Source: Rhodobacter sp. (GTDB taxonomy: Bacteria > Pseudomonadota > Alphaproteobacteria > Rhodobacterales > Rhodobacteraceae). From it: a DNA stretch of 37,098 nt. The stretch spans positions 1 through 37,098 of the forward strand of contig JAIYDR010000402.1 of NCBI GenBank assembly GCA_027487395.1. The letters run 5' to 3'. Numbering within the stretch: the first letter of the stretch is position 1; every line of letters begins with the position of its first letter. Below the pieces are notes generated by a model. It did not search any database. It saw only the letters and a program-made list of their open reading frames with translations, and was not told the DNA's origin. The position numbers and the translations under genes are program-made. Positions 16,740-31,216 of the stretch are shown here, piece by piece.

Positions 16740-18478
16740 GGCGGGTGCGACTTCGTGATCCGGTTTCGGCGCGTGTGCCCCGTCTCGGCAACCGATCACA
16801 CCCTGCGCCACTAGCGCGTCGATCCGCGCGGCATCAAGCCCAAGCACGTCGCAGAGGACATTCCGGGTGTCTTCGCCTGGCAATGGCGGTGCTTTGAGCG
16901 GGTGCCCCTGTTGCGCGGCAAGCCCCTACGCGGGTCCGATCAGCGACACCGGGCCAAGCTCGGGGTGTTCCAGCCGTTGGATGACCCCGCGTTCGACCAT
17001 TGATTTGGCCTGCAAGGCTTCAGAAACCGACTTCACCGGGCCTGTGGGCACATCGGCGGCATCACAGGCGTCAAGCCAATGCGCCATGGGACGGTCGTCC
17101 AGGATGGCCTGCACCCTATACAGCAGGTTTGGCCGGTTCAGCGCGCGCTGGTGCGACGTGACATAACGCGGATCGCGGGCCAGATCAGCGCGCAGGAGCA
17201 CCCTTTTGCGGGAATCGCCGGACATCCGGTCGTTGCCGACAGTTAGGGCAAAGGGGCCATCTGGTGCGGTAAAGAGTTGATAGCGCACGACGGTCGAATA
17301 GGCGTTGCCATAGCGTTTGGCTTCCATTCCAGCATTCAGCTGGGCACTTCGGACATTGACCAGCAGGTTCAGTGTTAAAGCCAATATGGCCACGTCGATG
17401 AACTGGCCGACCCGCGTCTCCCGCCGCCGGTACAGCGCTGCCAGCACCGATTGAGTCGCAACCATCCCGGCAACCACATCCGTGAAAGCGACGCCCAGCC
17501 GGTTCGGAGGATCGTCTGCTGCCGCGGTGATCGCCATCAACCCGCTTTCGGCCCGCATGATGAAGTCATAGCCCGGGCGCGCAACCTCTGGCCCCGTCTG
17601 TCCACAGCCCGAGATCGAGCAATCGGCGATGCCGGGGTTGATCTTTTGGATGTCCTTATGGTCGATGCCGCGCCGGTCCGCCGTTCGTGCGCGAAGGTTC
17701 TTAACCACCACATCGGCGCGGGCGGCAAGCTCCATGACGATGGCGCGGCCTTCGGGTGATTTCAGATCCAGCGCGATGCTGTGCTTGCCGCGATTTGGGC
17801 CAAGGTCATGGGTGATCAAGATCAGGCCTAACTTCAGCCGCGACTGAAGGTCGGCCAGAACCTCCATGATCTGCGCTTGCACGGTCATATCCAGCGCGGT
17901 TGTCGGCTCATCGGCGATCAGAAGGTCGGGGTCCTTGACCACTGCCATAGCGATCATGACGCGCTGGCGCATTCCGCCGGAAAACTCGTGCGGATACGGG
18001 TTCAGCCGCTGTTCGGGCTGCGGGATGGTGACCCGCGCCATCAGGTCCTTGGCACGGTCAAGCGCCGCGCGGCGCGACAGGTCGGGGTTGTGCACACGGA
18101 CCGCCTCGGCAATCTGGTCGCCCACGATCATCAGTGGGTTCAGCGACGAGAGCGGGTCCTGAAAGATCATTGCAATCCGCGATCCGCGAGAACCGCGCAG
18201 GTGGCGCAGGTCGTGCCGGGATAGGCCCAGAATTTCGCTTCCCTTGAATCGCACCGATCCGGTCACGCACGCGTCTTTGATCTGAAGGCCCAGGGCCGCC
18301 AGCATGCCCACCGACTTGCCAGATCCGAATTCGCCGACGATGCCCAGCACCTCGCCATGATCCACCTGCAGACTAATGCCGCGCACCGCATCCGAGCCCC
18401 CCCGTTTCGACCATAGGCCACGCGCAGGTCGCGCACCTCGAAAAGGGTGGACGCGTGTTCATTTCGACATCGGGTCAA
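16740..18478 (-). pseudogene. chimeric pseudogene: peptide ABC transporter ATPase (DppD/OppD) N-terminal part fused in frame to CaiB-type CoA-transferase C-terminal part
   Basis: ORF 16926..18386 reads GEFGSGKS...FSGGMRQRVMIAMA...LLIADEPTTALD...LILITHDLG then directly NRGKHSIALDLKSPEGRAIVMELAARADVVVKN (CaiB); frameshift near 18400 separates FEVRDLRVAYG from the rest; amber at 16926-16928 with plausible CaiB C-terminus continuing to TGA near 16740. Confidence 0.85.
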
Positions 18479-19069
18479 AGCAATCGTGCAGGCCGTCGCT
18501 GATGAAGTTGACGCCCAGCACGATGGTCATGATGCCAAGCCCTGAAGGGGTTGCTCTGGCGTCCAGTCGTCCGGGGCTAGGCAGGATGCCCCATTGCACC
18601 GAAAACACATAGAGCAAGGCTAGGCCCATCCAGAACACCGGAATGGAGGATCCGATCAAGGCAAACATCTGTGCGGCAAAGTCGATCACCGTGTTTTGGA
18701 CATGGGCGGCCAGAACCCCAAGCCCGATGCCGAACGTCGCCCCCACGATCATCGCCGCAGTGACCAGTTCCATTGTGGCGGGCGGAAAAGAACATCCTGC
18801 GCCACGGGCCGACGGGTGCTGAAGGATTTACCCCTGTCGCCAGTCTGCAGGTCGCCGATATATGAGCCCAAGCGTTCGGGAAGACTGCGGTCCAACCCCC
18901 ACTTCGCCTTGGCCGCCACAACCACCTCGGGGTTGTTCATCTGGCGGTCCGACATGATGGCGGTCCGGAGACCGCCCTTGGTCACGCGGATCAGTCGGAA
19001 GGCCAACGTGACAATTCCCAGCACAAGGAACGGCATAGCGATCAGACGGCGCAGGATGTTGCGGGTCAT
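18459..19069 (-). pseudogene. DppB-type permease pseudogene fused to the C-terminal end of a DppC-type permease
   Basis: MTRNILRRLIAMPFLVLGIVTLAF...GDRGKSFSTRRPVAQD (frameshift near 18775) MELVTAAMIVGATFGIGLGVLAAH...IPVFWMGLALLYVFSVQWGILPSPGR, then LGIMTIVLGVNFISDGLHDCFDP, which is DppC-like. Confidence 0.75.
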
Positions 19070-19237
19070 CGCCGGGTTCTTTCGGGTCTTGGCGGTTGGA
19101 ACGGTGGACTCTTCGCGGCGCGTATTCACACCGGGCGGACGGGCCGTCTACCTAATTGAAATCAAGTTTCAAATGCTCGTGCCTGCAGCTTGTCGCGTCT
19201 GTCGGAAATCGAAGAAAGCGACATCGGAAGGAAGGCG

Positions 19238-20116
19238 ATGCGAAAAAGGGCGTTACCTGTGCAAGGCGCCGAAGCGGTAGAGGCCAGCAATCCAGCGGCC
19301 TCGCTGACACGCGGTCTTGATATCCTGCGTGCTTTTGCAGCCAATGACGCCACACTCGGCAATCAGCAACTCATTGAGAGGACCGGCCTACCCAAGGCCA
19401 CGGTTTCCCGGCTGACAGCAACGCTGGTGTCGTTGGGCTATCTGCACCACGACACATAGCCTCGCCGCTACAGTATCAGGCCTGCCACGGTTTCGCTGGG
19501 CTATTCGGCGTTGAGTTCCAGCGCCGTGGTGCACAAAGCGCAGCCGCTGATGCAGGAGTTGGCCGACCGGATGGGTGTGGCACCGGCGCTTGGCACGCGC
19601 GACGGGCTGGAGATGGTCTATCTGGCCAACTGCCGGTCACAAAGCCCGGTGTTGTTGCGGCGGAACGTCGGCGCGCGACTACCAATCTGGCGCACAGCGA
19701 TGGGTCTTGCCCCTCTTGCCGAAATGCGGCCTGAAATCCGCGACGATGTGGCGGCGCAGATCATCTTGGCGGAACCAGAGCATGAAACCCGCATCCGCGC
19801 CTCGCTGGCCGATGCGATCAACAGCGACCGCCAGCACGGCTTTGCAGCGACCTTCGGCACCTGGTTCAGCTATATCAACGCCGTGGGCGTCGCCTTCCGA
19901 CCGTCCGATGGATCGCCACTCGTCGCCATCACCTGTGGTGAAATCGTCGATATCATCCCTCAGGATGCCTGCATGTCCAGAATCGGCCCTGATCTTGTCA
20001 GGGTCACCGCACATCTGCGGGCAAGGCTGAATGGCCAACTCGAACTGACGGCTGCCCAGCAACTCCCGTCCAGTCCTGTGGCGGGCAGCACCTCGATGGC
20101 GACGGCGCCTTGGTAA
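19238..20116 (+). pseudogene. IclR-family regulator interrupted by an in-frame amber codon
   Basis: SLTRGLDILRAFAANDATLGNQQLIERTGLPKATVSRLTATLVSLGYLHHDT*PRRYSIRPATVSLGYS; TAG at 19457-19459, same frame continues with an IclR effector-binding domain. Confidence 0.85.
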
Positions 20117-20510: not shown

Positions 20511-22082
20511 ATGTATTTGCACCGAGCCACGGGTCGGGAAGACGAACAGGTTCACCAAGAAAACGATTGGGTCCTTCCTTACTCGATGGAACATTCCGAA
20601 TCCGCACTATTCGCGCCCTGCAGCCTGTCCTTCTTCGGAACCCGCCAGAGCGATTTGCTGCGCGATTTCATACGCTGCGCCAAACTCCATCTCGGCTTGA
20701 AATCCCTCGCCTATGTGTCGCCATCGCCGGGTCAGGTGCACAAACCGGCAGGGATGACGGGCAAAGGCGTACTACAGGTCATGGCCGCCGAAGAGCTTGG
20801 CCTTGATCGTGTGCCGATTTCTCTGGGTGCCGTGGGTCGTGCATTGGCTGGACGGCTTTCAGACATGCCCGACCAGTCCATTCTGGCCGTGGACATGGGC
20901 TGGGGATTGCATACGGCTTCGGCCACGGCAAACTTTGAAGGCTGGATGGGCATTGCGCATGAACTGGTCGAACAGTCCGGCCACACGGTGGTATCGATCT
21001 ATAACCGCAGCCTGCTGATCGACGAACATCTGATGGCGGCGCTTCGCGGCCATTCCGCTGTCCTGACGTCCGAAGGCGTGGTGAAAAACCCGCATTGGCT
21101 TCCGCCGCACCTCAACGAAAAGGGTACGCTGCGGGAACAGGTGAATTTCTGGCTTGGCGGCTTGTCGCCCAGCCTTGCGCGCAACAGCCCCATTGCCGAC
21201 AGCCACGCTGCCGAAGGCGCTGATCCGAGGTGGCTGCTTGGTCGCCGGGCTGAAGAAAAGGTCATCCCCAAAGAAGAGGCTCTAAGGGAACGCTGGAAGA
21301 TCCGCTGCTTCGGGCGGCTGCGGGTCTATCGCGCCGATGGCAGCCAGATTCATTGGGCGGCCTCAGGTGGGGCCACGACCAAAACTAAGACGCTGTTCGC
21401 CTATCTGCTTCAGCAAGGTGGCAAGGGCGCGCGGGCCGATGATCTGGCCGACCTTCTGTGGCCAGAGGCTGAAAAGGTCGAAGCCGCGCGAAACCGTCTG
21501 TATCACACGATCCGCTGTCTGCGTCAGGCTCTGGAAGGCGGTCTGCCAGAACGTGGGGTTGGCTACGTGCTGCGCGACGGAAGCAGTTATGTGCTGGTCC
21601 CGCCGGAACGCAGCTGGCTGGACATATCGACCTTTGAACAGTTGTGCCGGCAATCCCAGACACACCTGAAGACAGGCGATCTGGACGAAGCCTTGATCTG
21701 CCTGCGCGCAGCCGACCGGCTGTATACTGGCGATTTGTTCGAGGACATTCCTGCCGAATATGTCGATGACCAGGAACGGGATTGGTGCTGGACTCGGCGC
21801 TACTGGCTGCGCGACATGTCCCTTAAGGTGCAACGCGACGCGGCCCGCATCTACCGCGCCCGGGCAGACTATTCTGCAGCCTTGGTGCACTGCCGCAAGG
21901 CGCTGGCGATGGACCCCTTGGCCGAGTTCGCACATGAAGAGTCGATGCAGGTCTTCGCAGCGCAAGGCCGACGCGAGGCAATCGACCGCCAATTCGCGCT
22001 GTACCTTGATTCGCTGTCGCGGTTCGACAACCGACCGCGCAGCGAGGCGCTGGTTAAGCTTCACCGCAGTTTAACAGCATGA
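20511..22082 (+). CDS. BTAD-domain (SARP-like) transcriptional regulator with N-terminal MEDS/DcmR-like sensory region
   Basis: C-terminal IRCFGRLRVYRADG...LFAYLLQQGGKGARADDLADLLWPEAEKVEAARNRLYHTIRCLRQALE plus BTAD helices; N-terminal VVSIYNRSLLIDEHLMAALRGHSAVLTSEGVVKNPHWLP resembles MEDS; start uncertain (20379, 20511 or 20586). Confidence 0.75.
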   Translation: MYLHRATGREDEQVHQENDWVLPYSMEHSESALFAPCSLSFFGTRQSDLLRDFIRCAKLHLGLKSLAYVSPSPGQVHKPAGMTGKGVLQVMAAEELGLDRVPISLGAVGRALAGRLSDMPDQSILAVDMGWGLHTASATANFEGWMGIAHELVEQSGHTVVSIYNRSLLIDEHLMAALRGHSAVLTSEGVVKNPHWLPPHLNEKGTLREQVNFWLGGLSPSLARNSPIADSHAAEGADPRWLLGRRAEEKVIPKEEALRERWKIRCFGRLRVYRADGSQIHWAASGGATTKTKTLFAYLLQQGGKGARADDLADLLWPEAEKVEAARNRLYHTIRCLRQALEGGLPERGVGYVLRDGSSYVLVPPERSWLDISTFEQLCRQSQTHLKTGDLDEALICLRAADRLYTGDLFEDIPAEYVDDQERDWCWTRRYWLRDMSLKVQRDAARIYRARADYSAALVHCRKALAMDPLAEFAHEESMQVFAAQGRREAIDRQFALYLDSLSRFDNRPRSEALVKLHRSLTA

Positions 22083-22204
22083 TGGATTAATTTATAATAT
22101 TTTTCAGACAGTTAGAAACTAAAGAAAAACCAAAGATGAATGCTGCATGTTGGATTGCGACTCGGTTCAAAGGACCGTTTCCATAGTTCTGCTGGGAGGA
22201 CAGA

Positions 22205-23455
22205 ATGAACACCATGACCCCGGCGAAAGCCTGTCCATTCTCCAATGCCGCCACGGATTTCGATCCGTTCGATCTGACTGACCCCTTTCCCTTCTATGCT
22301 TATGCCAGGGACGAAGCGCCGGTCTTTTTCTCGGAAAAGCTGGGCTACTGGGTTGTCTCGCGCCATGCTGACATCAAGGCCGTATTCGACAACTGGCAGG
22401 TCTTCTCGTCCGAGAACGCCCAAGCACCGATCCGCCCGATGGGAGAACCTGGTCGCGCGGTGATGAAGGCCGGCGGATTCACCGCCTATTCCGGCCTCTC
22501 GGCCCGCATCCCGCCGGATCACAGCCGCATCCGCAAGGTCGCGCAAAGCTGTTTTGGCCCGCGCCGATTTAAGTCCATCGAGCCGCAGATCTATGAGATC
22601 GTGAACCGCGAGATCGACAAGTTCGCCCATCAGGGCCGCGCCGATTTCTTCCGCGACTTCGCCTATGATGTCCCTGCCTATGTGTTGTTCCGTCTGGTCG
22701 GCGTGCCGGAGTCTGACGTACCAAAGGTCAAATCCTGGGCTGTCAGCCGCGCCTTGCTGACCTGGGGCGACCTGAACGACGAAGACCAAGTACCACATGT
22801 CCACAACATGGTGGACTATTGGGCCTATTGCCGCGCCCTCGTTGCCGCCGCTCATGAAACCCCCGGCGACAACCTGCCAGGTGACATGGTGCGTGCGCAA
22901 TTGGACGGCGCAGAGATCACCGACGACGAGATTGCCGGGGTTCTCTACTCTGTGCTGTTTGCCGGGCATGAAACGACGACAACCTTGCTGACCAATGCCC
23001 TGCGTGAAGTGCTGATCCGCCGCGACCAGTGGGAACTGTTGAAGGCAAATCCTGAAAAGTGGGCGGCTGCGACTGAAGAATTCTTGCGCTTCAGCCCGTC
23101 TATCGTGTCGTGGCGGCGCAGGGCCTTGCAGGAGACCGAAATCGGTGGCGTTTCCATCCCCAAAGGCGCGAATATCCTGCTGCTTCTGGGATCAGCCAAC
23201 CGCGATGCCGGGGTGTTCGCTCAGCCCGATACACTCGACATCGACCGCGCCAATGCCCGCAATCATCTGTCTTTTGGTTATGGCATCCACTTCTGTCTGG
23301 GTCAGCAACTGTCCAAGATGGAATTTGCCATCGCGATGAAGGAATTGGCCCGCCGCCTGCCCTCGCTCCGCTTGGTGCCGGATCAGGACTTCGCCTTCGG
23401 GCACAATACCTCTTTCCGCATTCCGACTGCGCTGCACATCGAATGGGACTTGTGA
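22205..23455 (+). CDS. cytochrome P450
   Basis: I-helix AGHETTTTLL, EEFLR, heme-binding FGYGIHFCLGQQLSKME; RBS GGGAGGA before ATG. Confidence 0.95.
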   Translation: MNTMTPAKACPFSNAATDFDPFDLTDPFPFYAYARDEAPVFFSEKLGYWVVSRHADIKAVFDNWQVFSSENAQAPIRPMGEPGRAVMKAGGFTAYSGLSARIPPDHSRIRKVAQSCFGPRRFKSIEPQIYEIVNREIDKFAHQGRADFFRDFAYDVPAYVLFRLVGVPESDVPKVKSWAVSRALLTWGDLNDEDQVPHVHNMVDYWAYCRALVAAAHETPGDNLPGDMVRAQLDGAEITDDEIAGVLYSVLFAGHETTTTLLTNALREVLIRRDQWELLKANPEKWAAATEEFLRFSPSIVSWRRRALQETEIGGVSIPKGANILLLLGSANRDAGVFAQPDTLDIDRANARNHLSFGYGIHFCLGQQLSKMEFAIAMKELARRLPSLRLVPDQDFAFGHNTSFRIPTALHIEWDL

Positions 23456-24531
23456 TGACTGCCCCCGCCCAAATGACCATTGATCCCCGCTTCATCCTGC
23501 CCTTCGAGTCCGCGACGGTGGCAGATCATCCCCGCATGGGCGGCAAATGCGCCAGCCTTGCCCGCATGATCGCCTTAGGCGTTCCGGTGCCGCGCGGCTT
23601 TGCCGTGGCGACCGATGCCTATGCCGCGCATCTGGCCGCAACGGGGCTTGAGGCTGCGATCCGTGAGGAGTTGTCGCACCTCGACACCCACAACGTGACG
23701 GATGAGGAGGCCCGGTCCCAAGCCATCCGCCGTCTGGTGACCGAGCGCACCATGCCTGCAGATGTGGAAACCGCCATTCGCGCAGCCTATGCGCTGATGT
23801 CGCCCGGCAATGATCTGCCCGTCGCCGTCCGCTCCTCCGCCACGGCCGAAGACATGCCCGACGCCAGTTTTGCCGGCCAGCAAGACACCTATCTGTGGGT
23901 CGTCGGCGCGGATGAGGTGGTGGACCGCGTCCGGTCCTGTTGGGCCAGCCTCTTTACCGCCCGCGCCATGAGCTATCGCGCGGACCACAACCTCGGCCAG
24001 ATCGAAGTGCTGATGGCGGTCGCCGTGCAGGAAATGGTCGACGCCCGCAGCGCAGGCGTCGCCATGACGCTGGACCCGATCAACGGCGACCGCACCAAGA
24101 TCGTGATCGACGCCTCATGGGGCCTTGGCGAAAGCGTGGTTTCGGGGGAGATCACGCCCGACAACTTCACCGTCGAAAAGGTCATGATGCAGGTACAAAA
24201 GCGCCGCATCGCTGAAAAGACCCATGAAATCGTCGCCGATCCCGCCGCCCGCCGCACCATCGACCGCGAGATCGAAGAAGGCCGCCGCAGCTTGCCCAGT
24301 TTGTCGGATGACGAGGTGATCGCAGTGGCGCAACTTGCGCGGCGGCTCGAGAAAGCCATCGGTGGGGCGCAAGACCTTGAATGGGCGATTGACCAACAAG
24401 GCCGCCTTGTCGCGCTGCAATGCCGTCCGGAAACGGTCTGGAGCCAAAAGAAAGCCGCGACGCAAACCTTTTCCATGGGGATCGAAGGCGTGCTCGGCAC
24501 GCTCTTGGCCCCGATCCAGAACAAGCTCTGA
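23455..24531 (+). CDS. stand-alone PEP synthase-like ATP-grasp (PEP/pyruvate-binding) subunit
   Basis: VAVRSSATAEDMPDASFAGQQDTYLWV, MTLDPINGDRTKIVIDASWGLGE, DLEWAIDQQGRLVALQCRPETVWS; 358 aa; ATG overlaps P450 TGA. Confidence 0.9.
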   Translation: MTAPAQMTIDPRFILPFESATVADHPRMGGKCASLARMIALGVPVPRGFAVATDAYAAHLAATGLEAAIREELSHLDTHNVTDEEARSQAIRRLVTERTMPADVETAIRAAYALMSPGNDLPVAVRSSATAEDMPDASFAGQQDTYLWVVGADEVVDRVRSCWASLFTARAMSYRADHNLGQIEVLMAVAVQEMVDARSAGVAMTLDPINGDRTKIVIDASWGLGESVVSGEITPDNFTVEKVMMQVQKRRIAEKTHEIVADPAARRTIDREIEEGRRSLPSLSDDEVIAVAQLARRLEKAIGGAQDLEWAIDQQGRLVALQCRPETVWSQKKAATQTFSMGIEGVLGTLLAPIQNKL

Positions 24532-24557
24532 ACAACACCTCTCGGGGAGGAGAGACC

Positions 24558-26372
24558 ATGACCGCAAAGACCAGTTTTCCCAGTGCCTATGACCTTGCCG
24601 CACCGGCAGGGGCAGAGGCATGGCGCGACCTGTACCCCTATTATCTGCTGTTCGCCGACAATCGCCGCGCGGAAGAGGACGGCAAGTTCTGGTTCTGCGA
24701 CAGCCAGCACTGGCCGAACCCGTTCAAGCCGTTTGACGCGGTGACGGTGGAATATGCGGTCAAATGCTTGGGCCAGTACAACACCCGGCACTACCTTGTG
24801 CCGCCTGCCAATGGCGTCGATTTCCGCATCCACAACGGCTATGTCTATATGTCGCCCGTTGGGGTTGCGCCGGAAAACATCGGCCCCCGCGTGCCGCAAT
24901 TCATGGACCGCGCCGGTCACTATTTCATGAATTGGGACAGCCTGCTCGACAACTGGATGGTCAAGGTCAAGGCCACCATCGCCGAGATGGAGGCGCTGCG
25001 CTTTGACGACCTTCCCGAGGTGGTGCCAGTAGAATGGGTCAAGGGCGGGCTGGGGATCGACAACACCGTGCCGCTGTCAGAAACCTATGACAAGGCGATC
25101 CAACTGCTGTACCGGACGTGGAATTACCACTTTGAATTCCTCAATCTGGGCTATGCGGCCTATCTCGATTTCTTCGGCTTCCTGAAATCGCAATTCCCGA
25201 CCATCTCGGACCAAGCCATCGCCAAGATGGTGCAGGGTGTGGACAGCGACCTTTTCCGCCCGGATGATGAATTGAAGAAACTGGCCAAGCTGGCAGTGTC
25301 CTCAGGCGTGGCAGCGCATCTGTCGGCGGGGTCAGTCGATCAAGTGCTGGCAGCGATGGCGGGCAGTGCGGCGGGTCAGGCTTGGGTTGCCGCTTGGGAC
25401 GGCGCGAAAGACCCGTGGTTCAACTTCACCTCGGGCAACGGCTTCTACTCCGACGACAAATACTGGATCGAACACCTCGATATCCCGATGGGCTATATCC
25501 ACGACTATGCCGCCCGCGTGGCCAAAGGGGAAAGCATCGACCGCCCCACCGCCGAAATCGCGGCAGAGCGTGACCGCATTACCGCCGAATACCGCGAGCT
25601 TCTGGACGCCGAGGCGCAGGGTGCCTTTGACGGCAAGCTCGGACTGGCGCGGACTGTGTTCCCCTATGTGGAAAACCACAACTTCTACATCGAACACTGG
25701 TCGATGTCGGTCTTCTGGCGGAAGATGCGTGAATTGTCGGCGGTCTTCCACCGTGCAGGCTTCTGGGAAAATGCCGATGACATGTTCTATCTGAACCGGA
25801 ACGAAGTGCGCGATGCGCTGTTCGATCTGGGCATGGGTTGGGGCGTGGGCGTTCCAGCCACCGGTCCGACGCATTGGCCAGCGGAGATCAAGCGCCGCAA
25901 GGCGCTCCTGACCGCGCTGCAATCGGCCCCGCCGCAGCCCGCGCTGAACGCCCCGCCTGAGGTGATCACTGAGCCCTTCACCATCATGCTCTGGGGGATC
26001 ACGACAGACGCTGTCAAGAAATGGCTGACAGGCTCCAGCGACGCGACAAAGCTGGAAGGCATGGCAGCCTCTCCCGGCGTGGTCGAAGGCCGCGCACGGG
26101 TGATCCGCTCGGCCAATGACCTTGGCCTGATCGAAGAGGGCGAGATCCTTGTCACCCCCGTGACCGCACCAAGCTGGGCCCCAGTGTTTGGCAAAATCCG
26201 CGCCACGGTCACCGACATCGGCGGCATGATGAGCCACGCCGCCATCGTCTGCCGCGAATACGGCCTGCCTGCCGTGACGGGGACGGGCACCGCCTCCAGC
26301 ACCATCAAGACCGGGCAGATGCTGCGCGTCGATGGCACGACGGGTGAGGTCACGATCCTGACCGCCGCCTGA
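24558..26372 (+). CDS. PEP-utilising-enzyme mobile (phosphohistidine) domain protein; phenylphosphate synthase PpsA-like
   Basis: 604 aa; C-terminal VTDIGGMMSHAAIVCREYGLPAVTGTGTASSTIKTGQMLRVDGTTGEVTIL with swivelling-His motif; no C-terminal PEP TIM-barrel; RBS GGGGAGGAGAG. Confidence 0.88.
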   Translation: MTAKTSFPSAYDLAAPAGAEAWRDLYPYYLLFADNRRAEEDGKFWFCDSQHWPNPFKPFDAVTVEYAVKCLGQYNTRHYLVPPANGVDFRIHNGYVYMSPVGVAPENIGPRVPQFMDRAGHYFMNWDSLLDNWMVKVKATIAEMEALRFDDLPEVVPVEWVKGGLGIDNTVPLSETYDKAIQLLYRTWNYHFEFLNLGYAAYLDFFGFLKSQFPTISDQAIAKMVQGVDSDLFRPDDELKKLAKLAVSSGVAAHLSAGSVDQVLAAMAGSAAGQAWVAAWDGAKDPWFNFTSGNGFYSDDKYWIEHLDIPMGYIHDYAARVAKGESIDRPTAEIAAERDRITAEYRELLDAEAQGAFDGKLGLARTVFPYVENHNFYIEHWSMSVFWRKMRELSAVFHRAGFWENADDMFYLNRNEVRDALFDLGMGWGVGVPATGPTHWPAEIKRRKALLTALQSAPPQPALNAPPEVITEPFTIMLWGITTDAVKKWLTGSSDATKLEGMAASPGVVEGRARVIRSANDLGLIEEGEILVTPVTAPSWAPVFGKIRATVTDIGGMMSHAAIVCREYGLPAVTGTGTASSTIKTGQMLRVDGTTGEVTILTAA

Positions 26373-26380
26373 TCCTGACA

Positions 26381-26407
26381 GCGGGCTGTCCCGATGGGAT
26401 GGCCCGC
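26381..26407 (+). other. intercistronic 12-bp-stem RNA hairpin
   Basis: GCGGGCTGTCCC-GAT-GGGATGGCCCGC, continuous pairing if G-U wobbles are allowed; lies between stop 26372 and likely start 26435. Confidence 0.5.
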
Positions 26408-26434
26408 CCCACTGCCCAAGGAAGCGCCCTGCCG

Positions 26435-27031
26435 ATGTCTGTTCTCCCAAATTCTCGCTATGATGCCGTCTGGCGGCGTGCCGAACCCTATATGCGTGCC
26501 CGCAAGAACGACGTGCATGTGCCCTTGTCCTTCGACTGGGCGCAGCGCCTGCTGGATGCCCACCCCAACGCCGACCGCGATATCGTCTCGCTTGCCATCC
26601 TGCTGCATGACATCGGCTGGTATTCCATCGACATGGCCGACATCATCGAAAAGGGCTTTGGTCCCAATATGATGCAATCCGATGTGCGTTTCCTGCACGA
26701 AAGCGAAGGCGTTCGGCTGTCGCGCCCCGTTCTGCAGGACACCGGCTGGGCTGAAGATGTGATCCTTGCCGTCGCCGAAATAATCGACGGGCATGACACA
26801 AGGCCCGAAGCCCGCCACCTGAACGACCGTCTGGTGCGCGATGCCGATAAGCTGTGGCGCTTTGGCGTGACGGGGGTTTCCGTCGCCTGCGACTGGTTCA
26901 AGATGACCCCGCGCCAATATGCTGACCGGCTGGAGCATCAGGTGGCCCAGTTGGAAACCGAAGCAGGTCGCGCTTGGGCGGCGCAGGAATTGCGCGCCAC
27001 GCGTGTCACCCTCAAGCTGAACGTGATCTGA
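26435..27031 (+). CDS. HD-domain protein 1 (dinuclear-type metal ligand pattern)
   Basis: DVHVPLSF...LAILLHDIGWYSID...RFLHESEG...IIDGHDTRPEA...VRDADKLWRF. Confidence 0.82.
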   Translation: MSVLPNSRYDAVWRRAEPYMRARKNDVHVPLSFDWAQRLLDAHPNADRDIVSLAILLHDIGWYSIDMADIIEKGFGPNMMQSDVRFLHESEGVRLSRPVLQDTGWAEDVILAVAEIIDGHDTRPEARHLNDRLVRDADKLWRFGVTGVSVACDWFKMTPRQYADRLEHQVAQLETEAGRAWAAQELRATRVTLKLNVI

Positions 27032-27043
27032 AGGACCAACCCG

Positions 27044-28486
27044 ATGGAAATGTTCATCGACGGCGGCTGGCGCTCTGCGGTGTCCGGCGCGACCCAGCCT
27101 GTCACCAACCCGACCACGGGGGATGTTATCGATACCGTTCCCACCGGGGATGCGGTGGATGCCGATCTGGCCATCCGCGCCGCCGACCGGGCCTTTGCCC
27201 ATTGGCGCATGCTTCCCGTGGCCGAACGCGCCCGCCTGCAACGCCGCGCCGCGCAATTGATGCGCGACCATGCCGACCGCATTGGGCGGGTGCTGACTGC
27301 GGAACTCGGCCGCCCTGTGGCAGCGGCGGTCACGGAAATCCAACGCTCGGCGGACCTGCTGGACGTTTATGCTGAGGAAGGGCTGCGCCTGCATGATGAG
27401 GTGATCCTGAGCCAACCCGGCGAAAAGATCATGGTCCGGCGCGAGCCTGTGGGGGTGGTGGTCGCCATTACACCCTTCAATTACCCCATTACGCTTTTGT
27501 GCTTCAAACTTGGCGCGGCGCTGATTGCGGGCTGCACCGTGGTGGCAAAACCCGCCGAGGATACGCCGCTCTCGACCCTGCTCTTGGCGGAACTGTTCCA
27601 CCAAGCGGGCTATCCGGCGGGATGTTTCAATGTGGTCACGGGGCGCGGGCGCGGGATCGGCATGGCGATGGTCAATCACCCCATCCCCGGCAAGGTGGCC
27701 TTTACCGGCGGCACAGCCGCAGGCAAAGCCATCGCCGCCGCCGCGACGGGCACGGTCAAGCGCGTGACGCTGGAATTGGGCGGCCAAAGCCCCGCCATCA
27801 TCTGCGCCGATGCGGACCTAGCAAAAGCCGCTGCTGCCATCGCGCGGCATGGCTTCGCAAACTCTGGCCAATTCTGCTACCGGGTGAACCGGGTCTATGT
27901 GGAACGCCCAGTCTATGACGCCTTCCTGTCGGCCCTGCTGGCCGAGGTGGCCAAGATCACTGTGGGGGATGGCCAGACCGACCCCGTCACCATGGGCCCG
28001 ATGGTCAACGCCAAGATCTTCGGCAATGCCTTCGGCCAGATCGCCGATGCCCGCGCCAAGGGGGCCCGCATCTGCTGTGGCGGGGATCGGCTGACGGGTG
28101 GCCTCTACGACAACGGCTATTTCCTGCCCCCCACCGTGATCGCCGACACCGACCATTCCATGCAGATCATGACCGAGGAAACCTTTGGCCCCGTCCTTGG
28201 CATCATGCCGGTGGACAGCGCGGCAGAGGCGCTCACCCTCGCCAATGACACGATCTATGGCCTTGCGGGTTTTGTGTTCACGGCCAACGTCGGGCGCGGT
28301 CTGGCGCTAGCGGAACGGATCAACGCCGGATCGGTCTGGGTCAATGACATCCACCGCTCTAACCACTCCGCCCCATTTGGCGGGATGAAGCAATCGGGGA
28401 TCGGCCGCGAAAAGGGCCGCTATGGGGTGGAAAGCTATCTGGAATACAAGACCGTCTACCTGACCTACGATGAGGGTCTGGCATGA
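27044..28486 (+). CDS. NAD(P)-dependent aldehyde dehydrogenase
   Basis: AITPFNYPITLLCFKLGAALIAGCTVVAKPAEDTP, VTLELGGQSPAIICADADL, FANSGQFCYRVNRVYVE, EETFGPVLGI; intact 480 aa. Confidence 0.95.
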   Translation: MEMFIDGGWRSAVSGATQPVTNPTTGDVIDTVPTGDAVDADLAIRAADRAFAHWRMLPVAERARLQRRAAQLMRDHADRIGRVLTAELGRPVAAAVTEIQRSADLLDVYAEEGLRLHDEVILSQPGEKIMVRREPVGVVVAITPFNYPITLLCFKLGAALIAGCTVVAKPAEDTPLSTLLLAELFHQAGYPAGCFNVVTGRGRGIGMAMVNHPIPGKVAFTGGTAAGKAIAAAATGTVKRVTLELGGQSPAIICADADLAKAAAAIARHGFANSGQFCYRVNRVYVERPVYDAFLSALLAEVAKITVGDGQTDPVTMGPMVNAKIFGNAFGQIADARAKGARICCGGDRLTGGLYDNGYFLPPTVIADTDHSMQIMTEETFGPVLGIMPVDSAAEALTLANDTIYGLAGFVFTANVGRGLALAERINAGSVWVNDIHRSNHSAPFGGMKQSGIGREKGRYGVESYLEYKTVYLTYDEGLA

Positions 28487-29073
28487 CTCCGCGTGACCTT
28501 GCCCTATGGCGCGCGGCGCGGCCTTGGCTGGATGTGCGCTCCAACGACATCCACACGCTGATCGCGTGGCGGCTGGCGGCGCGATTGATGCTGCTGCGCC
28601 CCGAAGCGGATGAGGCCGTGGTGCTGCCCGCCATCATCCTGCATGACACCGGCTGGAAGCAGATGCCGCAGGAGAAGCTGGCGCTGGCCGTGGGGCCAAA
28701 GGCGCAATTCCCCGAACTGCAACGCGATCATGAACTGGCGGGTGTTGCGATTGGCGCAGAGATCCTGACCCGTCTGGCGCTTGGTCTGGACGACAAGGCC
28801 ATCCTTGCGATCATCGATGGTCATGACACAACCAAGGACGCACGATCAGCGGAAGATGCCATCGTTAAGGACGCCGACAAGCTGTGGCGCTTTACCCCGC
28901 ATGGGGTGGCGACCATCGGCGGCTGGTTTGACACACCCGCGCCCGAAACTTTGGCAATGCTGGAAGATTTCGTCCTGCCCTCGTTCTTGACGCCCGAAGC
29001 GCGGATCATGGCGCAGGGCTTTTTGGCCGAAGGCTGGGCCTCGGCGGAACGCGATGAGAGGATGATGGGATGA
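28483..29073 (+). CDS. HD-domain protein 2, paralogue of HD-domain protein 1
   Basis: NDIHTLIAW...AIILHDTGWKQMP...QRDHELAG...IIDGHDTTKDA...VKDADKLWRFTPHGV; ATGA overlaps on both sides. Confidence 0.82.
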   Translation: MTPRDLALWRAARPWLDVRSNDIHTLIAWRLAARLMLLRPEADEAVVLPAIILHDTGWKQMPQEKLALAVGPKAQFPELQRDHELAGVAIGAEILTRLALGLDDKAILAIIDGHDTTKDARSAEDAIVKDADKLWRFTPHGVATIGGWFDTPAPETLAMLEDFVLPSFLTPEARIMAQGFLAEGWASAERDERMMG

Positions 29074-29822
29074 GCGGTCTTGATCTGGCAGGCAAGCGCG
29101 TGATCGTCACGGGGGCTGCAGGTGGTCTGGGACGCGCCTTTGCTGAGGCCTTTGCCCGTGAAGGCGCGCGCGTGGTGGTGGCCGATATCAACCTGAAAGG
29201 GGCTGAGGAAACGGCGGCAGACATCGGCACGGCGGCACTTGCCGCGCAAGTGGATGTGACTTCGCAGGCGTCCACCGCTGCTTTGGCGGCACTAGCGGCG
29301 GAACACCTCGGCGGAATCGACGTGCTCGTGAACAACGCCGCCATCTATGCCGGGTTGGAGCGTAAGGGCTTTGAGCAGATCGACGAAGCCGTCTGGGACC
29401 GTGTGATGGCCGTCAACGTCAAGGGCCCGTGGCAAATGACCCGTGCCGTGGCCCCATATCTGCGCGCGGCGAGCGGTGGGGCGGTGATCAACGTCTCCTC
29501 CGCCACGGTCATGAGCGGATCGCCGGATTGGCTGCATTACGTCAGCTCCAAAGGGGCCGTCATCGCCATGACCCGTGCCTTGGCGCGGGAATTGGGGAAT
29601 GACCGGGTGACAGTTAACGCCCTCGCCCCCGGTTTTACACTGACCGAAGCCAGCCTTGGCCTGATGGAGGATGCAGCGAGCTACGGCATCACGCGCGGCG
29701 CAATCAAACGCGCGGCGGGGTCGGATGACATGGTGGGGGCGGCGCTGTTCCTTGCCTCACCTTTGGCCAGTTTCATCACCGGACAGACCCTCATCATCGA
29801 TGGCGGACGCCAGTTCCTGTAA
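29070..29822 (+). CDS. short-chain dehydrogenase/reductase
   Basis: GKRVIVTGAAGGLGRAFAEAFAREGARVVVADI, VLVNNAAIYAG, YVSSKGAVIAMTRALARELG, C-terminal TGQTLIIDGGRQFL. Confidence 0.95.
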   Translation: MSGLDLAGKRVIVTGAAGGLGRAFAEAFAREGARVVVADINLKGAEETAADIGTAALAAQVDVTSQASTAALAALAAEHLGGIDVLVNNAAIYAGLERKGFEQIDEAVWDRVMAVNVKGPWQMTRAVAPYLRAASGGAVINVSSATVMSGSPDWLHYVSSKGAVIAMTRALARELGNDRVTVNALAPGFTLTEASLGLMEDAASYGITRGAIKRAAGSDDMVGAALFLASPLASFITGQTLIIDGGRQFL

Positions 29823-29831
29823 GGACCAAAC

Positions 29832-29960
29832 ATGCCCCTGATCCCCTTTGTCGAACCCGACGGCTCCCGTCGGGCGGTTTCCGCACATGCCTGCGAAAGC
29901 CGGATGGCCGCCGCCTACGCCAAGGTGGCAAGGAATGTCTTGCAGGTGGCACCGCGATGA
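29832..29960 (+). pseudogene. [2Fe-2S] ferredoxin remnant lacking the cluster-binding core
   Basis: MPLIPFVEPDGSRRAVSAHACESRMAAAYAKVARNVLQVAPR* resembles the ferredoxin N-terminus (FVEPDG.RR.V.A..GES.MAAA) but has none of the CX5CX2C cluster cysteines; ATGA overlap with reductase. Confidence 0.7.
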
Positions 29961-31216
29961 GCGGCGTGGTCATCATTGGTGCTGGCCATGCAGGGAGCCA
30001 ATTGGCCGTATCCTTGCGGGCCGAAGGCTATGCAGGCGCGGTGATGCTGATCGACGCCGCGAACACCCTGCCCTATCACAAGCCGCCTCTCTCCAAGACT
30101 TTTCTGAAAGACCCCGCCGCGCTGCCCCAACCCCTGCGCGCCGCATCCGCCTATGATACGGTGGGGGTGGTGCGGCGGACAGGCACAGTCAGTGCCATCG
30201 ACACCACCGCGCAGAGCGTGACGCTGGACGGCGAACCCCTGCTCTATGGTGATCTGGTGCTCGCGACCGGGGCGCAGAATCGGATGCTGCCGGACCTTAC
30301 AGGGGCCTCCAATGTCTATAGCCTGCGCGATCTGGCCGATGCCGAACGGTTGCGCGTGGCCTTGGACTCAGCCCAAAGGGTCACCGTGATCGGTGGTGGC
30401 TTCATCGGGTTGGAAACGGCGGCAGCACTGGCAGCCATGGGCAAATCGGTGACTGTGCTTGAATCCGCGCCGCGTGTGCTGGCGCGGGTGTCGGCCCCCG
30501 AAACCTCGAACCGAGTCACATCGACGCTGGCCGATCTGGGTGTGACCCTGCAAGCGGGTTTTCAGGCGCAAGGGTTCAGGCGCGCCGGCGATCAGGTGAT
30601 TGCGGTTGAGGGTGCTGGTGGTGACATTCCTTGTGACCTCTTGCTGGTAGGAATCGGGGCTTCGGCCACTGTGCATCTTGCGCAAGCAGCGGGCATTGCA
30701 TGCGGAGCGGGCATCCTTACAAACCCACATCTGCAGACAAGCGCTGCGCATGTATGGGCCATCGGCGATGTGGCCGAAACCCCGAATTGGCTGGCGGACG
30801 GAGCAGCAGTGCGTCTCGAAAGCGTTCAGAACGCGACCGATCAGGCCCGCCATCTCGCACGGCATCTTGCGGGGGCAAAAATCGGACCCTTTCGGACAGT
30901 GCCATGGTTCTGGTCCGACATCGGGCCGTTGAAGCTGCAGATCGCGGGCCTGCCCCTCCATGCGGACCGCAGGCTGGTGCGCGAGGATGGCGCAAGGCTG
31001 GCGGTGTTTCATCTGGCGGGCGACCGGCTGGTCTGTGTTGAGACGCTAAACAGCCCAGCCGAGCACATGATCGCGCGGCAGCTCATCGACGGCAGCCATA
31101 GGCCACCGGATGCCATATTGCTGGATGGCCCCGCTGCGGTGAAAGCGTGGTTGGCGCAGGGCGGAAAGGGTGTTGGTGTTCCCCAAGAACAGGGTAAGTC
31201 AGCTGCATTGATATAG
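29957..31216 (+). CDS. NAD(P)/FAD-dependent ferredoxin reductase (P450 electron transfer)
   Basis: VVIIGAGHAGSQLAVSLRAEGYAGAVMLIDAANTLPYHKPPLSK, RVTVIGGGFIGLETAAALAAMGKSVTVLE, VWAIGDVAE. Confidence 0.92.
   Translation: MSGVVIIGAGHAGSQLAVSLRAEGYAGAVMLIDAANTLPYHKPPLSKTFLKDPAALPQPLRAASAYDTVGVVRRTGTVSAIDTTAQSVTLDGEPLLYGDLVLATGAQNRMLPDLTGASNVYSLRDLADAERLRVALDSAQRVTVIGGGFIGLETAAALAAMGKSVTVLESAPRVLARVSAPETSNRVTSTLADLGVTLQAGFQAQGFRRAGDQVIAVEGAGGDIPCDLLLVGIGASATVHLAQAAGIACGAGILTNPHLQTSAAHVWAIGDVAETPNWLADGAAVRLESVQNATDQARHLARHLAGAKIGPFRTVPWFWSDIGPLKLQIAGLPLHADRRLVREDGARLAVFHLAGDRLVCVETLNSPAEHMIARQLIDGSHRPPDAILLDGPAAVKAWLAQGGKGVGVPQEQGKSAALI

Follow-up and report, generated by a model that had tools for sequence, protein, structure and literature searches.

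An operon of a Rhodobacter genome resembling the phosphorylation-initiated p-cresol pathway of Corynebacterium glutamicum

The 37,098-nucleotide stretch of a Rhodobacter sp. contig that we analysed (hereafter, the window) harbors, at positions 20511-31216, a tightly packed plus-strand operon of ten genes, from a BTAD regulator to a ferredoxin reductase, in which a cytochrome P450 is combined with a two-component kinase and two HD-domain proteins. Which pathway does this gene set encode, and is it an undescribed one, as an earlier note on this DNA had proposed? The gene content, the conserved linkage of the genes, the clade membership of the kinase, the conserved catalytic residues and the lower-pathway genes in the same genome all point to a described route: the window very likely carries a catabolic operon of the Cre type, with p-cresol or a close 4-alkylphenol as the substrate. 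The gene order is BTAD-P450-I-H-HD1-ALDH-HD2-SDR-Fd(remnant)-FdR:

20511..22082, +, BTAD-domain transcriptional regulator, start codon not certain (PF03704, E 2e-13)
22205..23455, +, cytochrome P450, CreJ-type (PF00067; match to PDB 5xjn/5gwe; motifs)
23455..24531, +, ATP-grasp subunit of a two-component dikinase, CreI-type (PPDK_N PF01326, E 3.5e-108)
24558..26372, +, phosphohistidine/substrate subunit, CreH-type, 604 aa (PF00391 at residues 525-596; NF006150, 1067 bits)
26399..27031, +, HD1, probable CreD-type phosphohydrolase (PF01966; HD tree; motif)
27044..28486, +, aldehyde dehydrogenase (Aldedh PF00171, E 4e-163)
28483..29073, +, HD2, second HD hydrolase, a paralogue of HD1 (PF01966; separate clade in the tree)
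29070..29822, +, SDR, probable benzylic alcohol dehydrogenase in the CreG position (adh_short_C2 PF13561)
29832..29960, +, ferredoxin remnant, 42 of 102 residues (alignment with L036, L037, L038 and L072)
29957..31216, +, FAD-dependent ferredoxin reductase in the CreE position (Pyr_redox_2 PF07992 and Reductase_C PF14759)

All these ORFs are on the plus strand and, with the exception of the ferredoxin, all are open. The P450 and ATP-grasp genes are joined by TGATG; the ALDH/HD2, HD2/SDR and ferredoxin remnant/reductase pairs are joined by ATGA, and the remaining junctions of the enzyme block are gaps of 9-26 bases. The ORFs, Pfam matches and junctions thus bear out the reading of the named genes as one plus-strand operon behind a BTAD regulator. 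Directly upstream, at 16926-20116 of the window, an ABC-transporter ATPase is fused in frame with a CoA-transferase III domain, accompanied by truncated permease fragments and by the C-terminal domain of an IclR protein that lacks the HTH part; by their sequence, these could be either gene remnants or a product of misassembly.

A scan of genome contigs yielded 461 relatives of the 604-aa H subunit. Selection was by resemblance to the window kinase, the 80 best being retained, and 63 of these have enough flanking sequence. In 61 of the 63 well-flanked relatives, the P450 gene is accompanied by the genes of both kinase subunits, one or more HD proteins, an SDR and an ALDH, so the linkage is not due to chance. 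An intact operon is also present in Bradyrhizobium sp. BTAi1 (L042). The recurrence, traced from the 604-aa protein as the earlier note had suggested, speaks against novelty of the P450/kinase/HD combination. The most common gene order among the 63 relatives is exactly that of the window, and a BTAD regulator precedes the P450 in 45 relatives, with an IclR regulator present in 13; the ferredoxins and ferredoxin reductases diverge so much that their counts are minimum values. The relatives come from four phyla (Pseudomonadota, Bacteroidota, Chloroflexota and Actinomycetota). At the nucleotide level, the window resembles its four nearest relatives only within positions 20775-31162, so the surroundings of the operon differ in each of them. 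Among 385 sampled genomes of the window's class, the Cre-type H subunit was detected only in the window's own genome, and two others encode a full-length homologue with 43-45% identity.

The catalytic His560 of the H subunit is located within the motif GGMMSH, which is present in all of the best 80 of the 461 relatives, and the ATP-grasp subunit gene adjoins the H subunit gene in 63 of the 63 well-flanked ones; the NF006150 profile scores above the cut-off in one of 14 named control genomes, a result that is not counted as evidence here. A quick maximum-likelihood tree of the H subunits unites all P450-linked kinases, together with those of two P450-less loci (L078 and L091), in one tight clade (hereafter, the Cre clade). 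Rifampicin phosphotransferase and PEP synthase share the ATP-grasp and swivel His domains but are single polypeptides with other substrates, and the sequence match is confined to the 100-residue swivel region.

The best match of the P450 in a PDB sequence search is 5xjn/5gwe (489 bits), which we take to be CreJ (CYP288A2) of C. glutamicum, and the next group of structures scores 277 bits. The window P450, 5xjn and the relatives have in common the FTAYSG, PP[DE]H, SR..xTWG and heme-Cys motifs, the first three of which are missing or changed in other P450s. Searches for the C. glutamicum cre locus with the 5xjn sequence recovered P450s of at most 73% identity and no identical one; the connection to this bacterium is made through the published annotation, the gene order and the P450 structure that we regard as CreJ.

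In C. glutamicum, creCDEFGHIJ corresponds to cg0637-cg0645, and the gene list read from cg0645 to cg0637 gives J-I-H-G-F-E-D-C; the annotated products are P450 system subunits, 4-methylbenzyl phosphate synthase subunits, 4-hydroxybenzyl alcohol dehydrogenase, phosphohydrolase and benzylaldehyde dehydrogenase (PMC7764795, which cites Du et al. 2016 and Li et al. 2014 for the Cre p-cresol pathway). The Cre enzymes are the kinase CreHI, the P450 CreJ with CreEF, the phosphohydrolase CreD, the alcohol dehydrogenase CreG and the aldehyde dehydrogenase CreC, and they are described as the p-cresol pathway of C. glutamicum (PMC9549646, PMC8796525). A tblastn search against plasmids identified two Rhodococcus plasmids with ~64% identity in the kinase subunit and ~55% in the P450, on which the clusters are annotated as IclR-P450-ATP-grasp-PEP-utilizing-SDR-2Fe-2S Fd-FAD reductase-HD-ALDH, the same order as that published for cre from cg0645 to cg0637. 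The window SDR is ~61% identical to the SDR of these clusters, but for the ALDH (~40%) and the ferredoxin reductase the identity to the Rhodococcus and Microbacteriaceae counterparts is no more than 35-42%, so these two may be separate recruitments. On both Rhodococcus plasmids, the cre-like cluster is flanked by toluene-4-monooxygenase-type genes (L032:1958-6442 and L033:16658-21180) that would supply it with p-cresol from toluene.

The window and the Cre system each combine a two-component aryl kinase, a class I P450 with its reductase, alcohol and aldehyde dehydrogenases and, probably in the case of the window, a phosphohydrolase in one cluster; among the relatives in public data, the actinobacterial ones retain the published cre gene order. 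The window operon differs in having a BTAD regulator, its own gene order and a second HD paralogue, in the ferredoxin that is broken in this assembly, and in the greater divergence of the ALDH and the reductase. A lower pathway for 4-hydroxybenzoate is encoded in the same genome, on contig C248, where pobA and pcaGH score above or near the curated cut-offs (pobA, 658 bits against a cut-off of 539; pcaH, 361 against 296). Given the match in content to the p-cresol pathway (PMC7764795, PMC9549646, PMC8796525), the view of the operon as an undescribed pathway has to be abandoned: a homologous pathway, albeit not this exact cluster, already has a characterised substrate.

By homology, the CreI-type ATP-grasp subunit would present ATP, and His560 of the CreH-type subunit would take the phosphate and hand it to the phenol hydroxyl, yielding an aryl phosphate. 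This would be in keeping with the mechanism of HpeHI and PpsAB, where ATP is presented by the ATP-grasp subunit and its beta-phosphate moves to the swivel His and from there to the phenol (PMC12167813). With electrons delivered by the ferredoxin reductase through a ferredoxin, the P450 would then oxidise the phosphorylated substrate at its para side chain. HD1 would strip the phosphate in the manner of CreD, and the SDR and ALDH would turn the benzylic alcohol first into the aldehyde and then into 4-hydroxybenzoate. The latter would proceed to ring cleavage via PobA and the protocatechuate 3,4-dioxygenase encoded elsewhere in the genome. The phosphorylation of a hydroxyl by the ATP-grasp/His pair, as surmised in the earlier note, is probably right, and processing of the phospho-intermediate probably holds for an HD protein. 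The SDR and ALDH presumably do have an oxidising role, as proposed, but on the main route rather than on side products.

HD1 contains the H/HD/H/HD/D motif at residues 40, 69-70, 100, 131-132 and 148, and the motif is retained in HD2 as well. In the HD tree, HD1 groups with the HD gene that, in actinobacterial clusters, occupies the creD position next to ALDH, and HD2 belongs to a second group that is also found in some actinobacterial clusters; because the two fall in separate groups, both with actinobacterial members, they are old paralogues. Two HD genes are present in 52 of the 63 well-flanked relatives, and HD2 is probably a phosphatase for a second phospho-intermediate. A PDB sequence search detected no significant relative of either protein. 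Assignment to the Cas3 or YqeK type was considered and rejected, the family matches being weak and far under the cut-off.

It is possible, although we do not favor this option, that the phosphorylate-oxidise-dephosphorylate logic is the same and the natural substrate is another alkylphenol or a lignin-derived methoxylated phenol rather than p-cresol. HD2, the BTAD regulator and the deviating ALDH would then mirror such a difference; the second HD paralogue is indeed widespread among the relatives, regulator and gene order differ outside Actinomycetota, and the C. glutamicum system itself oxidises a range of p- and m-alkylphenols (PMC9549646). Conversely, the window operon shares its P450 motifs and kinase clade with the actinobacterial clusters, and pobA and pcaGH suit 4-hydroxybenzoate as the end product.

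The ferredoxin raises a separate question, namely, whether the Cre-type operon of the window is functional. At 29832-29960, an in-frame internal deletion has removed 60 codons and, with them, all Fe-S cysteines, and the remnant, which has no Pfam match, shows extra local substitutions compared to the intact 102-residue ferredoxins of the close relatives L036, L037, L038 and L072. The ferredoxin remnant recognised in the earlier note is thus real, and the reductase is intact in the window, with the ferredoxin intact in the close relatives. Because the local ferredoxin is broken, electrons would need another one, for which a [2Fe-2S] ferredoxin encoded on contig C208, with 35% identity to that of an intact relative, is a candidate, and the window copy of the operon may not work as it stands. 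That this copy is a decaying, non-functional operon is nonetheless doubtful. The loss of the Fe-S cysteines and the truncated or fused genes immediately upstream argue for decay; however, the other operon genes are open, with 87-97% protein identity to L036 except for the regulator and the reductase, the C208 ferredoxin could substitute for the local one, and the deletion itself may be an artefact given that the assembly is fragmented (430 contigs).

It seems rather unlikely that the non-actinobacterial form is a functionally distinct, BTAD-regulated branch of the Cre pathway that acts on a phenol other than p-cresol and splits the phospho-intermediates between two HD phosphohydrolases. Far less probable still is an undescribed pathway in which the P450 acts first, by hydroxylation or dealkylation, and the new hydroxyl is then phosphorylated, the order put forward in the earlier note: the gene content by itself does not dictate which step comes first, but the closest relatives of the window P450 and kinase are those of the characterised pathway, which starts with phosphorylation according to PMC9618137 and the title of a reference in PMC7764795. 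A hydroxyphenylethanone (Hpe) or anaerobic phenol (Pps) pathway can be effectively dismissed, because, although the kinase family is the same (PMC12167813) and the window H subunit is 47-48% identical to those of L034 and L035, the operon lacks carboxylase genes and its kinase lies outside those groups in the tree.

HpeHI of Rhodococcus rhodochrous GD02 is a homologous two-component dikinase with a catalytic His (PMC12167813, PMC9618137), but the Hpe genes represent a biotin-dependent carboxylase route without a P450; the Rhizobium locus L035 combines a kinase of this kind with biotin-carboxylase and HAD genes. The phenylphosphate synthase PpsAB (Thauera type) likewise involves a homologous kinase, with a proposed mechanism, but is linked to phenylphosphate carboxylase genes, as is the Azoarcus kinase of L034. 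Neither type of carboxylase gene is present in the window operon. The L034 and L035 kinases fall outside the Cre clade, together with two alphaproteobacterial kinases and one from Rhodococcus; the outer branching order is unsure because the outgroup branches are long. An H subunit of a two-component kinase, 48% identical to that of the window and encoded in an unannotated record of a Rhodococcus sp. JS3073 plasmid (L135:8001-9809), lies beyond the Cre clade at the tip of a long branch.

Alphaproteobacteria, Bacteroidota and Chloroflexota thus appear to encode, in the form of a conserved operon, the phosphorylate-first alkylphenol pathway characterised in Corynebacterium. This provides many natural variants of CreHI and CreJ, enzymes already applied to selective alkylphenol oxidation. 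One concrete, testable question is posed by the conserved second HD paralogue, and another by a Rieske-containing variant found in two relatives. In L091:8881-14427 and L078:8878-13753, the Cre-clade kinase pair is followed by an SDR and then by a VanA-type Rieske oxygenase; P450 and HD genes are missing from both loci, and an HAD hydrolase comes next in L091. This arrangement suggests a variant of the phosphorylate-first pathway in which, possibly, the Rieske oxygenase acts on the phosphorylated phenol.
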